Assembly: GCA_012518875.1 (NCBI GenBank)
Contig: JAAYRI010000025.1
Coordinates: forward strand, 1 to 61,973
From: Peptococcaceae bacterium
GTDB taxonomy: Bacteria > Bacillota > Desulfotomaculia > Desulfotomaculales > Pelotomaculaceae
Direction of reading: 5' to 3'
Length of the DNA stretch: 61,973 bases
A program made the translations under genes and the position numbers. The notes below the pieces were generated by a model, which saw only the letters and a program-made list of their open reading frames with translations, had not been told where the DNA came from and searched no databases. Shown here piece by piece: positions 17,612-24,962 of this stretch (the first letter of the stretch is position 1; each line of letters opens with the position of its first letter).

Positions 17612-18454
17612 CTAGTACTCCTTGGGCATACCTTTCAGTTCGGCCTGGCTGAAAACAGGTCCATCCACACAAACAAATTTGGATCCAATGTTGCAACGGC
17701 CACATTTGCCCAGGCAGCATTTCATCCTCATTTCAAGGGTGGTGATAATCTGTTCATCCTTAAAGCCCAGCTTCGCGAAAACAGGCAAGGTAAACTTAAT
17801 CATGATTGGTGGACCGGCAATGATTGCTACCTTATTTTTAGGTGAAGGAGCAACCTCCTCCACGTAGTTGGGCACAAAACCAACATGGCCCTTCCAGTCA
17901 TCTTGCGGGCGGTCGATGGTGGTATATATCCCAGTGTTGTGGAGCTTGGGCCAGCGTTCGGCCAGATCACCCTTAAAGCACATATCATCTACTGATCGTG
18001 CACCATAAAGAACCTCCACCCTGCCGTAGTCACTACGATACTGATCGGAAAGGGCAAAGTCAATCAATGAACGAATAGGCGCCAGGGCAAAACCGCCACC
18101 CACGAAAAACAAATCCTTACCTTTCATAGCCTCATAAGGAAACCAGTTTCCATATGGGCCCCGCACACCAAATTTTTGGCCTACCTCCATCTGATGTAGG
18201 ACTTCAGTTAATCTGCCGACTCGTTTAACAGTGAACTCAAGGAACTTCCCCCTGGTAGGAGATGATGTGATGGAGATGGTGGATTCACCCTCACCAAACA
18301 CAGATAGCATACATACCTGACCCGGTTTATTACCAAAGTTCTCCATGATTTCCGGGTCATCAAATTCTACCGTAAAAGTCTTAACATCACTGGTTTCGTC
18401 AACGATTTTGGTAATTGTCACGGGATATGGCGTCAGAGCAGTAGGATTAGGCAT
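17612..18454 (-). CDS. flxA: FlxA-like FAD/NAD-binding oxidoreductase (2Fe-2S C-terminal motif)
   Basis: GPYGNWFPYEAMKGKDLFFVGGGFALAPIRSLI; C-terminal MKCCLGKCGRCNIG..VCVDGPVF. Confidence 0.85.
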   Translation of the reverse strand: MPNPTALTPYPVTITKIVDETSDVKTFTVEFDDPEIMENFGNKPGQVCMLSVFGEGESTISITSSPTRGKFLEFTVKRVGRLTEVLHQMEVGQKFGVRGPYGNWFPYEAMKGKDLFFVGGGFALAPIRSLIDFALSDQYRSDYGRVEVLYGARSVDDMCFKGDLAERWPKLHNTGIYTTIDRPQDDWKGHVGFVPNYVEEVAPSPKNKVAIIAGPPIMIKFTLPVFAKLGFKDEQIITTLEMRMKCCLGKCGRCNIGSKFVCVDGPVFSQAELKGMPKEY

Positions 18455-19499
18455 TCTGCGCCACCTCCTTCAAGTCATTGATAATTTTAGTAATGTCGAT
18501 ATTAACCGGACATTTCCTAATACAGCGGCCACAACCCACACAGCCAACCATATTGTACCTGTCCAGATGGTACTTCAACTTGTGCATGAAGCGGTTACGG
18601 ATGCGCTCCTTCCTGGTCGGACGCGGGTTATGTCCACCCGCCATGAGCGTATATTCCGGGTACATACAGGAGTCCCAGCAGCGGATGCGATCACCTGTAA
18701 TATCACCGGTAGTAAAGTCAAAGATATCAAAACAGTGACAGGTTGGACATACATAGGTGCATGTTCCGCAACCAATGCATTTTTTGTACGGATCCTCGTC
18801 CCAATAGGCCAATTCAAAATCGCTGTCCAACAGCTCCTTCACACCGGTCAGATCAACCTTTTTGACAAATTCACCGGCTAGTTTTTTGGCCAGTTCCTCT
18901 TTGTCTTTGGCCAGTTGATCCGTATTTTCGCTGCTGAAGAATTGGCTATTTGCATCTACTAAAGCCTGGCCTTTGTCAGTATTAATTTCCACATAGTACT
19001 TGTCACCAATTTCAGTAAACAAAAGATCTGAGCCCGTCCCATCACATGGCCCACCTCCAAAAGCATAGCAGAAGCAGGTGCTGAGGACCTTTGAACAACT
19101 CAAACCGATGATTACTGTGTTTTCACGTTTGCTGGAGTAAAATTCGTCACCAAATTTTTCCCCTTCGAAAACCGGATCCAAGGTTGTTATCGCTTTGATG
19201 TCGCATGGGCGCGCGCCAAAAAGCACTGTTTTCTTGGCGCTTTCAGGTTTGACAATCTCTAGTGAATCCCCCGTATATGTGTAAGAAAAAATCTTTTCGC
19301 TCTGGGGTAGAAAACACCCTTTGGGGGATACATCCGAATTGGTGTAATCCAGAAATGCATCCTGGGCAGAAGATATTTTTTTAAATAATGTTATTGTTTC
19401 TTCCTTTACGGGTGCAACCAGATCATAATCCTTCGCTAATTTATCCAACAGCCCAGACAGTTGCCCCTTATTTACAATTTTTGCCTTCAATCTCAGCAC
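18447..19499 (-). CDS. flxC: 4Fe-4S dicluster protein (AsrA/FlxC-like)
   Basis: CIGCGTCTYVCPTCHCFD and CVGCGRCIRKCPVNIDI; within hdr-flx gene order. Confidence 0.75.
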   Translation of the reverse strand: MLRLKAKIVNKGQLSGLLDKLAKDYDLVAPVKEETITLFKKISSAQDAFLDYTNSDVSPKGCFLPQSEKIFSYTYTGDSLEIVKPESAKKTVLFGARPCDIKAITTLDPVFEGEKFGDEFYSSKRENTVIIGLSCSKVLSTCFCYAFGGGPCDGTGSDLLFTEIGDKYYVEINTDKGQALVDANSQFFSSENTDQLAKDKEELAKKLAGEFVKKVDLTGVKELLDSDFELAYWDEDPYKKCIGCGTCTYVCPTCHCFDIFDFTTGDITGDRIRCWDSCMYPEYTLMAGGHNPRPTRKERIRNRFMHKLKYHLDRYNMVGCVGCGRCIRKCPVNIDITKIINDLKEVAQNA

Positions 19500-19505
19500 C
19501 TCCTT

Positions 19506-20468
19506 TTACATAAACTCCTCGGGATCGCCAAGGGAGAATTCACCCAGCGCCGACAGCAATCCCTGTTTTGAACCTGGTGTTGGAGAATCAAATAAATCCT
19601 TAAGATCCTTGTGGATCTTCTGGTTCAGCTTACGAATCGGAATATCCATGGGGCAGACGCGGTCGCATTCACCGCAGTCCACGCAGCGCCCTGCCACGTG
19701 AAAAGCCCTGGTGATATGGAATACAGTGTTCTCCGAGAGGTTGGTCCGCTTGGAAACCCACATCGGCTTCATCTGGTCAAACACACAGAGCGCACAGGTA
19801 CAAACACTACATACATTACGACAGGCATAGCAACGCAGGCAGCGGCTAAATTGCTTGTCCCAGTAGGCACTCTTCTCTTCAAGCCCCAGCTGTTCCAGCT
19901 CTTCTACCTCAGCAAATCTTTCTGCATAATTCTTTACAGGCAGCTCTTCACCGATAGTGAAGTCTGCTATTACAGGGTTAGGGTTTTCACAAACCAGGCA
20001 CCTGTGCAACATATAGTCCTTTTTGTTAAAGGTGTGATCACCGGTGCTGGTTTTCACCACAAAACTATCCCCATTGTCAACTGTTTCTTTCAGGGCAGCA
20101 TCGGGCTTAATTTCATCTGCAACCTTTTGCCATTCAAGCTGTCCGGCGCAAGGCACACCGATTACTACTATTTTGTCCCGGCTAATCTGGTTATCGTCCA
20201 GGAGCCTAATGACAGACCTGGAGTCACAACCCTTAACCACAACGGCCACATTTCCCGGCGCGTTTTTGTAGTCAATCAGGTATTTAGCCAGGTTGTTGGC
20301 ACAGAACGGTCCCCAGGTCAGTGCGGACACACCTTCAGGGCTATCGATAAATACAGGTGTGGTCCGGGCTAACTCCGTTCCTTGGCCAAAGCCTATCACT
20401 AGATCGACCTTTTTCTCTTCCAGGAGCTTTTTTGCTTGCTCTCTGATTTGCTTGGTTAGATTCATCAT
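19506..20468 (-). CDS. flxB: 4Fe-4S protein (FlxB-like)
   Basis: CLRCYACRNVCSVCTCALC, CVDCGECDRVCPMDIPI; ATG overlaps the readthrough stop of flxD (ATGA). Confidence 0.75.
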   Translation of the reverse strand: MMNLTKQIREQAKKLLEEKKVDLVIGFGQGTELARTTPVFIDSPEGVSALTWGPFCANNLAKYLIDYKNAPGNVAVVVKGCDSRSVIRLLDDNQISRDKIVVIGVPCAGQLEWQKVADEIKPDAALKETVDNGDSFVVKTSTGDHTFNKKDYMLHRCLVCENPNPVIADFTIGEELPVKNYAERFAEVEELEQLGLEEKSAYWDKQFSRCLRCYACRNVCSVCTCALCVFDQMKPMWVSKRTNLSENTVFHITRAFHVAGRCVDCGECDRVCPMDIPIRKLNQKIHKDLKDLFDSPTPGSKQGLLSALGEFSLGDPEEFM

Positions 20469-20905
20469 AATATCTCATCCCTCATCTTTGTATTCGGACC
20501 CAGGGATTTTATTTTTTCAGTTACTTCATCCATCGTACTAGCAAATTTAGCCCCCTCAGAAGCGGATATCCAGCGCGCCGTTAGACGGCCGGGCTCAAAA
20601 CCAACATACTCCAACAGACGCTTGAGCAACAAATAACGCCTGCGGGTGAAATAATTGCCACTAGAATAGTGGCAGTCTCCGGGGTGTCACCCAGAAACTA
20701 AAACGCCGTCTGCACCCTTTTGAAAAGCCCTTAGCACAAATGCCGGGTTAACCCGTCCGGAGCACGGTACACGGATTACCTTAACATTAGGCTTGTATTT
20801 CATCCGGCTTACTCCAGCCAGGTCAGCGCCGGTATAACTGCACCAATTGCAGGTAAAACCAACTATGTTCGGATAAAACTCCTTATTCTCAGTACCTATC
20901 GACAC
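20465..20905 (-). CDS. flxD: FlxD/MvhD-like hydrogenase iron-sulfur subunit, predicted selenoprotein (UGA at 20687-20689 read as Sec)
   Basis: ORF track stops at 20687, but same-frame continuation gives ...[80 protein letters not shown], matching the conserved GCHPGDCHY family C-terminus. Confidence 0.9.
20656..20674 (-). promoter_or_regulatory. Candidate bacterial SECIS hairpin
   Basis: RNA UGCCACUA-UUC-UAGUGGCA (8-bp perfect stem) beginning 12 nt after the UGA. Confidence 0.5.
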
Positions 20906-22881
20906 AGGGCGTCCACCTCCGAAAGCAGTTGTAGGTTAGTATACCCTTTCAGGTTCGCCGCACCAGCCCGGCAGGCCACCGTACAGTTGCCGCATCCCTG
21001 ACAAAGACCGGTGTTAACACTGGCCACGATTCGTTCTACAGGCTGACCAGCAATCCTTTCGGTAATGGTCTTTTCTGAAATCGCCTTATAGGGGCATACC
21101 TCTTTACATACAAGGCAGCCGGAACACATTTTTTCATCTATATGACAAATCATCGGGTCAGTAGCCATTTGATCATTACTTAACAGTGCAGCTACCTTGG
21201 CCGCGGCCCCGCTGGCTTGGGATACAGTGTCCGGTATGTCTTTGGGACCCTGGCAAGCACCGGCTAAAAACACACCGCCGGTCATTGTTTCCACAGGTCT
21301 TAGTTTGGGGTGAGCTTCTATAAAGAAACCATCCTTGTCAATATTGACCCCTGCTAACTGGGCAATTTTTTCCGAACCTTCTGTTGGCACCATAGCCGTG
21401 GCCAGAACAACAAGATCTGCCTCTATATGGACAGCGCTTCCCAGCAAGGTATCTGCCCCCATCACAACAAGCTTGTCTCCCGACTGATATATTTTAGAGA
21501 CCCTGCCCCTGATGTACTGTGCCCCTTCATCGACAGTACGGCGGTAGAATTCATCGTAGGCTTTGCCCGGTGTACGCACGTCCATGTAAAAGATATAAGC
21601 GTGGCCACCCTCAATTTTTTCTATCACCTGGTGGGCATGCTTGGCTGTGTACATACAACAAGCACGGGAACAGTATTCCTTAGCCTTGGCCTCATCTCTT
21701 GAACCAACACATTTAATAAACACAACTGTTTTCGGTTCTTTTCCGTCCGAGGGACGTTGGATCAATCCGTTTGTAGGACCGGAAGCATTTACTAAACGTT
21801 CAAATTGAAGGCCCGTGATAACATCCTTAAAGCGGCCATAACCGTATTCCCCATAAATCTCTTCCCATTTAATCAGGTCATAACCTGTAGCAATTACAAT
21901 AGCTCCTACCTTTTCTTCTATTAATTCATCTTTTTGTTCAAAGTCTACAGCGCCTACAGGGCAGAGTTTTTTGCAAATACCACACTTGCCATTTTTTAAA
22001 TAACGACAGTTATCAGGGTCAATTACCGGTTTGTTCGGGACCGCCTGTGGAAACTCGATGTATATCGCTTTTCTTTTGCCCATCCCCAGTTCAAAGGAAC
22101 TGGACACCTTTGTGGGACATTTTTCAGTGCACAATCCGCAACCGGTACATATCGTATGATCTACAAAACGTGCTTTTTGTTTTATTGTTACTTCAAAATT
22201 GCCAATATAGCCTTGTACATCAACTAATTCAGCATAAGTCATTATGGTAATATTCGGATGCTGTGCAGCCTGGACCATTTTAGGCGTACTGATACAAGCA
22301 GAGCAGTCCATAGTGGGGAAGGTTTTGTCCAGTTTAACCATATTACCGCCTATTGTTGATTCACGTTCCAACAAAATAACCTCATGCCCACTATCTGCTA
22401 TGTCAAGGGCTACCTGTATACCCGCAATGCCCGCGCCAACTACCAGTGCCTTTTTTGTAATTGGAATTGACGATTCAAACAGGGGTTCCACCTGAGATAC
22501 CTTCGCCAGCGCTCTCTTTACAAGTGCTATAGCCTTTTGGGTGGCTGCTTCTTTATCATTTGAGTGAACCCATGAACATTGCTCACGAATGTTTGCCATA
22601 TCAAACATATAAGGGTTCAGTCCGGCCCGGGCAATTGCCTTGCGAAATGTAGGTTCGTGAAGCATGGGCGTGCAGGACGCCACAACCACCCTGTCTAAAT
22701 TATGTTCCTTAACCTTGCTGATGATCAGGTTTTGGCCGGGTTCAGAACACATATATTTGTAATCAGTTGCAAAGGCAACCCCTGGATAATTTTTAGTCTC
22801 CTCCACAACCCTTGGTACATCAACCACTCCACCAATATTGGAGCCGCACCAGCAGATGAAGAGACCAATCCTTTTAGCCAT
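20896..22881 (-). CDS. hdrA: Heterodisulfide reductase subunit A-like flavoprotein
   Basis: [32 protein letters not shown], multiple ferredoxin motifs ([36 protein letters not shown]). Confidence 0.95.
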
Positions 22882-22907: not shown

Positions 22908-23771
22908 TTAACCAACCACACTTAGTACCTTCTTGGTATCCGTAAAGTGTGTTTTAAACCCTAGTTCATCCGGGCTAATACCCATTGACAAGCCCAAGAG
23001 CTCGGTAAAATAAAATACCGGTATATCGTAGGACTTCCTCAGCTTCCTATTAACACTCTTCTGGTGCCAATCAAGGTTGAGATGGCAGAACGGGCAAGCC
23101 ACCGCTATACAATCAGCATCACTTTCTACCGCTGCTGCAAGAATCCTGTCAATCATTCTCACCGCGACATCCAGATTGGAAACACCTAGAGAAGCCCCGC
23201 AACATTCTGTTTTATGGGCCCAGTCCAGCGCCTCTGCGCCTGCTAATTTCATGATGTTATCTATGAACATAGGGTTTTCTGGATCGTCAAAGCCTGTTAT
23301 TTCAGGCGGCCTGACCAGCAAGCAACCATAATAACAGGCCACCTTAAGACCTGTCAAAGGTTTGACAACTTGTGATTTAATGGTCTCTGGATCCACTATC
23401 CCGATTGCTTCTACTATTGATTTTACTTTTAGTGTCCCCTTGTATGGCTTACCGGTTATACTATTTACTTTATTTCTAAGGTCTTCATTTTCAATCATTT
23501 TTTTATTGGCGTTGGCCAGCTGCTGATAGCATGCTGCGCACCCGGTGGTTACTTCATCAATTCCCATGCCTTCCGCTATGCCCAAGTTACGGGATGGCAG
23601 GGCGATGTTTAATAGATGGCTTTTGCCATGGGATGCAGTAGCTCCGCAACAACTCCAATCCGGTATCGTAACCAGTTCCATACCTAGTTTTTTAGCTACT
23701 GCATGGGTTGACAACTCGTATTCCTTGCCGGTCCCATGATAACTGCATCCCGGAAAGTAAGCGTACCTCAT
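22908..23771 (-). CDS. hdrB: Heterodisulfide reductase subunit B-like
   Basis: YFPGCSYHGTGKEYE; two CCG domains (SCCGAT..., ECCGASLG...CPFCHLNLD). Confidence 0.95.
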   Translation of the reverse strand: MRYAYFPGCSYHGTGKEYELSTHAVAKKLGMELVTIPDWSCCGATASHGKSHLLNIALPSRNLGIAEGMGIDEVTTGCAACYQQLANANKKMIENEDLRNKVNSITGKPYKGTLKVKSIVEAIGIVDPETIKSQVVKPLTGLKVACYYGCLLVRPPEITGFDDPENPMFIDNIMKLAGAEALDWAHKTECCGASLGVSNLDVAVRMIDRILAAAVESDADCIAVACPFCHLNLDWHQKSVNRKLRKSYDIPVFYFTELLGLSMGISPDELGFKTHFTDTKKVLSVVG

Positions 23772-24349
23772 TTCACACCACCTTCCATTTTGCGCACCTC
23801 GGCAAATATACGGGCAACCTCCGCCGCACCCTGTACCTTTGTCGGCAACAACTTCAGTTTGCCTCTCTGGAACATAGGCATTCCCATATCGGCATTATTA
23901 AACAATTTTCCGCTTTTTAAGTTGTTTTGCATAACCAACCCGACCTCATAAGTTCTCCCAAATCTTTCAACTGTCCCCAACAAAGCGTCGTACATAACCT
24001 CCACGTATTTGGCCTTTCCCGGGGGTGTAGTGCCACTTTTCCCAGCCATGATCCGGAGAGCTCCCATCACCTCGGCAACCTCCACGTTGCATGGGCAGCG
24101 GGTTGTGCATGTAGAGCAGTTTGAGCAGATCCAGATGGTCTGGCATTTAAGCAATTCATCCTTCATACCCAACTGGACCATGCGAATAACCTGGTTCGGT
24201 TTGTAATCCATGGCGAATGTCAAAGGGCAACCAGCAGTACATTTGCCGCACTGATAACATTTTTGTACAGGTTGTCCGCTCTCAATACCTATCTCTTCGG
24301 TAAAATCCGCATTTTTTACAATTGATTCATTTACATTAATGGATTCCAT
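23768..24349 (-). CDS. hdrC: Heterodisulfide reductase subunit C-like
   Basis: CYQCGKCTAGCPLTF, CSNCSTCTTRCPCNVE; start MESINVNES preceded by RBS gaggggt. Confidence 0.92.
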   Translation of the reverse strand: MESINVNESIVKNADFTEEIGIESGQPVQKCYQCGKCTAGCPLTFAMDYKPNQVIRMVQLGMKDELLKCQTIWICSNCSTCTTRCPCNVEVAEVMGALRIMAGKSGTTPPGKAKYVEVMYDALLGTVERFGRTYEVGLVMQNNLKSGKLFNNADMGMPMFQRGKLKLLPTKVQGAAEVARIFAEVRKMEGGVK

Positions 24350-24962
24350 AACAGACCCCTCTTTGCAGAAAAATCTTAACCAAAAGGGCAAATCCTCGCT
24401 CGATCACTTTGGCCGCATTAAAATGTCTATTCATTTTTCTATTAAGTGATGTCACTCACCTGCCATTCCCCAAAAAAAATAATATATTCTGCATAATACA
24501 ACACCTGCGGTTTAGTGAAACTAAAGGTGCACAAAAACCATTATTTAATTGACTAATAAATCAGATTAATTAAAGACCTGCTGATATTATAAAACGTTTG
24601 AGACGATGTGTCTAGGGTAGTATTCCTAGGAATATGTATGGTTATTGTAATATGCCCAGGGGATTGCGGCAAGACAGTGTGGCTGTAAACTTTTACAATT
24701 ATAATACTCATTATAAGAAATGTAAATTCTTTTAAACTGCAAATCAACCAATTTTACTTAATATGTTAAGAGGGCAGACCATAATAGTCTGCCATGTAAT
24801 ATTATTTCCATATTTTCAGCAGCCATGATCTTAAAAATGCGGGAAGCTTAACAAAATACACACGCAAGGATACTCACATCCCTTCATTAGGTTAGCTGCT
24901 AATATATTATTTTAAACACTGATTAAATGTGCTATCTTTTTCATTGTAACGTTTGCCATATA

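Follow-up and report, generated by a model that had tools for sequence, protein, structure and literature searches.

It is almost certain that the in-frame UGA at codon 73 of the flxD/mvhD gene encodes selenocysteine (Sec), and that flxD is a complete gene, in the stretch of DNA analysed here (61,973 nucleotides over its whole length, hereafter the window). With high confidence, flxD is read as an intact selenoprotein gene of an HdrABC-FlxABCD complex, in which the insertion of Sec at residue 73 would be driven by SelB and a hairpin downstream of the UGA. Sequence directly shows the reading frame, the genes of the Sec machinery, the operon, and that both the UGA and the hairpin are conserved; from these we infer Sec incorporation in vivo, binding of SelB, the route of the electrons and what selenium does.

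The flxD gene and the Hdr-Flx operon

Read on the minus strand from 20905 to 20465 with the UGA taken as a residue, flxD (20465..20905; GTG start) has 146 codons and a single internal UGA, codon 73 (20687..20689), at the position of the first Cys of the motif GCHPGDCHY. If the UGA is counted as a stop, the ORF is only 72 aa long. The terminal TGA of flxD (20467-20465) shares the sequence ATGA with the ATG of the next gene. This layout, a 72-aa ORF whose frame continues to 146 codons, had been described in the first-pass annotation and was re-derived from the sequence. The read-through protein matched PF02662 (FlpD/MvhD) with E=2.4e-55 and 186.2 bits (gathering score 22.3), the match covering all 123 profile positions (1-123) and residues 14-136 of the protein. 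The alignment with MvhD proteins that the earlier annotation had suggested placed a Cys of the solved chains 5odc_D and 8rvu_F opposite the UGA, across which both chains align (E=3e-52 to 4e-49), and by homology to 5odc the predicted fold of FlxD is already fixed. The Sec position is one of five conserved FlxD cysteines, and residue 73 is likely a ligand or a near neighbour of the FlxD [2Fe-2S] cluster. A second, remote FlpD-domain protein was found elsewhere in the genome (L018, contig C188; 669-aa frame, 52.8 bits), without the CHPGDC motif.

The minus-strand gene order between 24391 and 17612 is hdrC-hdrB-hdrA-flxD-flxC-flxB-flxA, followed by fdhD, and this order supports the assignment of the gene to FlxD that had been made before. 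Upstream of flxD lie hdrC (23768..24391; 4Fe-4S), hdrB (22908..23771; two CCG domains) and hdrA (20896..22881; 661 aa, flavin and Fe-S domains, without an in-frame UGA), and downstream an flxC-like Fe-S subunit (19506..20468; FrhB/FdhB C-terminal domain, 4Fe-4S), an flxB-like Fe-S subunit (18447..19499; related to sulfhydrogenase beta and AsrA) and an flxA-like FAD/NAD(P)-binding subunit (17612..18454; the presumed NADH entry point), all on the minus strand. hdrABC and flxA, B, C and D are adjacent genes on the same strand with the expected domains that are kept together in relatives, i.e., a predicted operon. Other UGA-interrupted frames in the window yielded no further convincing candidate; most look antisense or due to chance, as judged without family comparison, and the longest of them (UGA at 1230, minus strand) reads as two adjacent genes sharing one frame. 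An Rfam search of the window returned tRNAs only.

The Sec machinery of the genome and its relatives

The assembly is a draft of 227 contigs and 80% complete. The first-pass annotation had called for a search for selA, selB, selC and selD and had regarded a lack of selB or selC as fatal to its reading; both of these genes are present, together with selA. The tRNA-Sec (selC) scored 68.8 bits against a cut-off of 47 and has the anticodon TCA (UCA), selA (612 bits) and selB (361 bits) lie side by side, each above its curated cut-off, and a UGA-containing formate dehydrogenase FdhA (858.8 bits) is encoded in the same genome. The remaining gene, selD, was not found in the assembly, and because this is only 80% complete and selD scored above cut-off in 22 of the 25 family genomes, including close relatives, its absence likely represents an assembly gap.

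A tRNA-Sec match above cut-off was obtained in all 57 Sec-FlxD genomes tested; 56 scored at least 66 bits, and G041 scored 50 bits, which other tRNAs also attain. Among genomes with a single Cys-type FlxD match, 13 of 19 likewise reached at least 66 bits, so that a Cys-FlxD does not imply that the Sec machinery is missing. Two formate dehydrogenase alpha genes of the window's genome (L220 on contig C20 and L222 on C209) contain one UGA followed by a hairpin with the loop GGUCU, which is unlike the flxD hairpin and which we take to resemble the E. coli fdhF type. The SelD of family genomes (L080-L083) is itself a UGA-containing selenoprotein gene product (one UGA), with a GC-rich hairpin downstream that has the triloop GUG or GUA.

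Conservation of the UGA and of a SECIS-like hairpin

A UGA at the identical flxD codon was found in 62 Bacillota genes, the window's included, mostly in hdrCBA-flxDCBA operons and mostly within the motif GUHPGDC. Their sources are the family of the window and further members of its phylum that were sampled; 58 distinct genes (the window's included) were retrieved by pattern, and four more have CYY replacing CHY. That 62 genes share this UGA position excludes chance, and together with the full-length PF02662 match and the operon context it bears out the earlier suggestion of a hidden FlxD/MvhD selenoprotein. Hdr and flx neighbours were present at nearly all Sec-flxD loci having enough flank (exceptions: L092, without flxABC, and L108, L110 and L123, with the hdr set rearranged or incomplete). 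The best protein tree, built on few columns (136), requires 9 changes of the Sec label, and well-supported branches force 5 or more of these. The dN/dS was 0.03-0.05 before the UGA (where computable, in diverged pairs) and 0.07-0.15 after it; by these estimates, the flxD sequence 3' of the UGA is under purifying selection. Silent change after the UGA is lower in closer relatives, the effect expected from a hairpin within the coding sequence.

Such a SECIS-like hairpin, UGCCACUA-UUC-UAGUGGCA, lies at 20656..20674 (minus strand; 8 bp and a triloop), starting 12 nt past the UGA. The consensus in the Sec genes is UGCCACUA-NNN-UAGUGGCA, with the same 8-bp stem and 12-nt spacing, and all eight stem positions are paired (G-U included) in 62 of 62 Sec genes versus 0 of 105 Cys genes, the best of which had a hairpin score of 6.5 of 8. 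The codons 3' of the UGA are locked as TAT-NNT-AGT in 58/58 Sec genes: Tyr is TAT in 58/58 Sec versus 53/105 Cys genes, the next codon ends in T in 58/58 versus 20/98, and Ser is AGT in 58/58 versus 5/30 (AGT makes up 18% of the Ser codons of ten further genes in the window). Nine stem substitutions occur across the 62 Sec genes and pairing is retained each time via G-U; in four Sec genes the protein changes from His to Tyr while the stem pair is kept, which points to selection on RNA. The folding energy of the window's hairpin is -11.1 kcal/mol (z = -2.05 versus shuffles); for three Sec relatives z lies between -1.7 and -3.0, for two Cys relatives between -0.4 and -0.8. Hairpin presence agrees with the Sec or Cys state in 5 of 5 independent pairs on well-supported branches (p=0.0625; with only five such pairs available, the per-pair test alone stays above 0.05).

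These patterns bear on whether the UGA could be a real stop, leaving either an flxD pseudogene or two half-proteins, one of 72 aa and a re-initiated C-terminal piece. The standard code does give a 72-aa ORF, and Dred_0138, a comparable Desulfotomaculum reducens gene flanked by hdrA and two FeS genes, appears as a pseudogene in PMC4759654, but purifying selection before as well as after the UGA, the same UGA in 62 genes of many families, a locked hairpin limited to the UGA genes and the Sec machinery in the genome make a real stop very improbable. An equally slim chance is left for read-through by a suppressor tRNA or a reassigned UGA that gives Trp, Cys or Gly: the Cys of relatives indicates that Cys would work at this site, but flxD itself and other genes of the window terminate in UGA, Sec genes are present, a tRNA-Sec match accompanies every Sec-FlxD genome tested, and the hairpin would be left unexplained. 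That TGC or TGT became TGA through a sequencing or assembly error is scarcely conceivable, even in a draft of so many contigs, because the congener G018, assembled separately and ~91-96% identical around the operon, carries the same TGA (a base-calling error is thus very unlikely), as do other UGA-type relatives, and the UGA-associated hairpin is intact in the window. A TGC or TGT at 20687-20689 had been named beforehand as decisive against Sec; close relatives keep TGA there.

With the UGA read as Sec, SelB carrying Sec-tRNA(UCA) would bind the hairpin that begins 12 nt past the UGA, and would insert selenocysteine at residue 73, yielding a 146-aa [2Fe-2S] electron-transfer subunit. This FlxD may carry electrons from the NADH-oxidising FlxABC to the HdrA flavin within an HdrABC-FlxABCD complex, which might perform electron bifurcation or confurcation among NADH, ferredoxin and a disulfide in what would be a syntrophic-type anaerobe. 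The [2Fe-2S] cluster of methanogen MvhD hands electrons to the HdrA flavin (PMC6019823), and FlxABCD-HdrABC has been proposed to pass them likewise from NADH (Ramos 2015, as cited in PMC6687939).

Four MvhD paralogues from other genera of the window's family (L036 in G008, L130 in G006, L131 in G016 and L132 in G007) have a UGA for the second Cys of the N-terminal motif CNWC. These CNWU/CHWU paralogues keep Cys at GCHxxxC and form one clade on the tree, and their UGA marks a predicted second Sec site within the MvhD family, beyond published findings. Decayed mvhD copies with further stops (L134 on G006:C154 and L135 on G017:C34), in some of which the NWU motif has a UGA, lie beside intact ones and are apparent pseudogenes of Sec paralogues.

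Comparison with the bacterial SECIS model and known systems

In the bacterial SECIS model of Zhang and Gladyshev, as outlined in a review (PMC13188914, Fig. 2A), a stem of 4-16 bp carries a loop of 3-9 nt located 16-37 nt from the UGA, with a folding energy of -7.5 kcal/mol or lower, and a G stands within the first two loop positions. The flxD hairpin keeps to the limits of this model (stem of 8 bp, loop of 3 nt lying 20 nt from the UGA, -11.1 kcal/mol), but, unlike the model, its loop UUC lacks a G at positions one and two, and no alternative hairpin with a conforming loop G was found near the UGA of the window's flxD. The loop G is present in 54 of the 62 Sec genes (UGN: UGU, UGC, UGG, UGA), and the loop is UUC in the other 8 (the window's gene and seven others), 7 of which belong to the Pelotomaculum family and one to another family (L091, G063). 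Since the UUC loop breaks the published rule, bSECISearch, which had been suggested as a check, would probably miss flxD of the window. Some bacterial SECIS elements break the model according to the same review (PMC13188914), so that the UUC loop is an extension of the model and not a contradiction of it. We lean towards the view that the UUC of the Pelotomaculum group is a natural G-less SECIS read by SelB; it would be shared by no fewer than two lineages (the Pelotomaculum family and G063) and sit in the fixed 8-bp hairpin characteristic of Sec-FlxD across Bacillota. The near-invariant stem, with a loop varying at one codon (UGN/UUC), offers a test set for the SECIS requirements of Gram-positive SelB.

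Selenoproteins of the FrhD/MvhD type are already known in Clostridia, and the window gene belongs to that family: Sec-FrhD was reported in 2006 from D. reducens (2), Moorella thermoacetica, Carboxydothermus hydrogenoformans and Syntrophomonas wolfei (PMC1794560, Table 3), and Sec-MvhD in 2009 from Desulfobacterium autotrophicum (PMC2702500). Judged by position, Dred_0138 of D. reducens is probably a misread selenoprotein of the FlxD kind. The FrhD/MvhD/VhuD selenoproteins (PF02662) and the window's FlxD are of the same protein family; compared by listed motif only, the review gives CxxU (PMC13188914), and the predicted Sec of the window's gene is at GUHPGDC. The first-pass annotation had stated that the same Cys is Sec in VhuD of methanogens, which we could not confirm because CxxU, given in the review with two Sec for archaeal VhuD (PMC13188914), fits the N-terminal CNWC and not GCHPGDC (the site of the second VhuD Sec aside). 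Beyond published work, the predicted Sec at the GUHPGDC site goes with a complete Hdr-Flx operon. A standard gene call halves flxD, and models of syntrophic energy metabolism can therefore miss the subunit that would link NADH oxidation to HdrA; Sec-FlxD would also link the supply of selenium to the Hdr-Flx complex in many Bacillota.

The described FlxABCD-HdrABC (Ramos 2015, as cited in PMC6687939) shares with the window operon hdrABC, an NAD/FAD subunit, Fe-S subunits and an MvhD-like FlxD; the FlxD of the window differs in being a predicted selenoprotein, and our search of the literature, itself incomplete, found none that names FlxD as one. With the MvhAGD-HdrABC of methanogens (PDB 5odc) the window operon has homologues of HdrA, HdrB, HdrC and MvhD in common, but in the window an NADH-type FlxABC replaces the NiFe hydrogenase, and flxD has a bacterial-type hairpin inside the gene.
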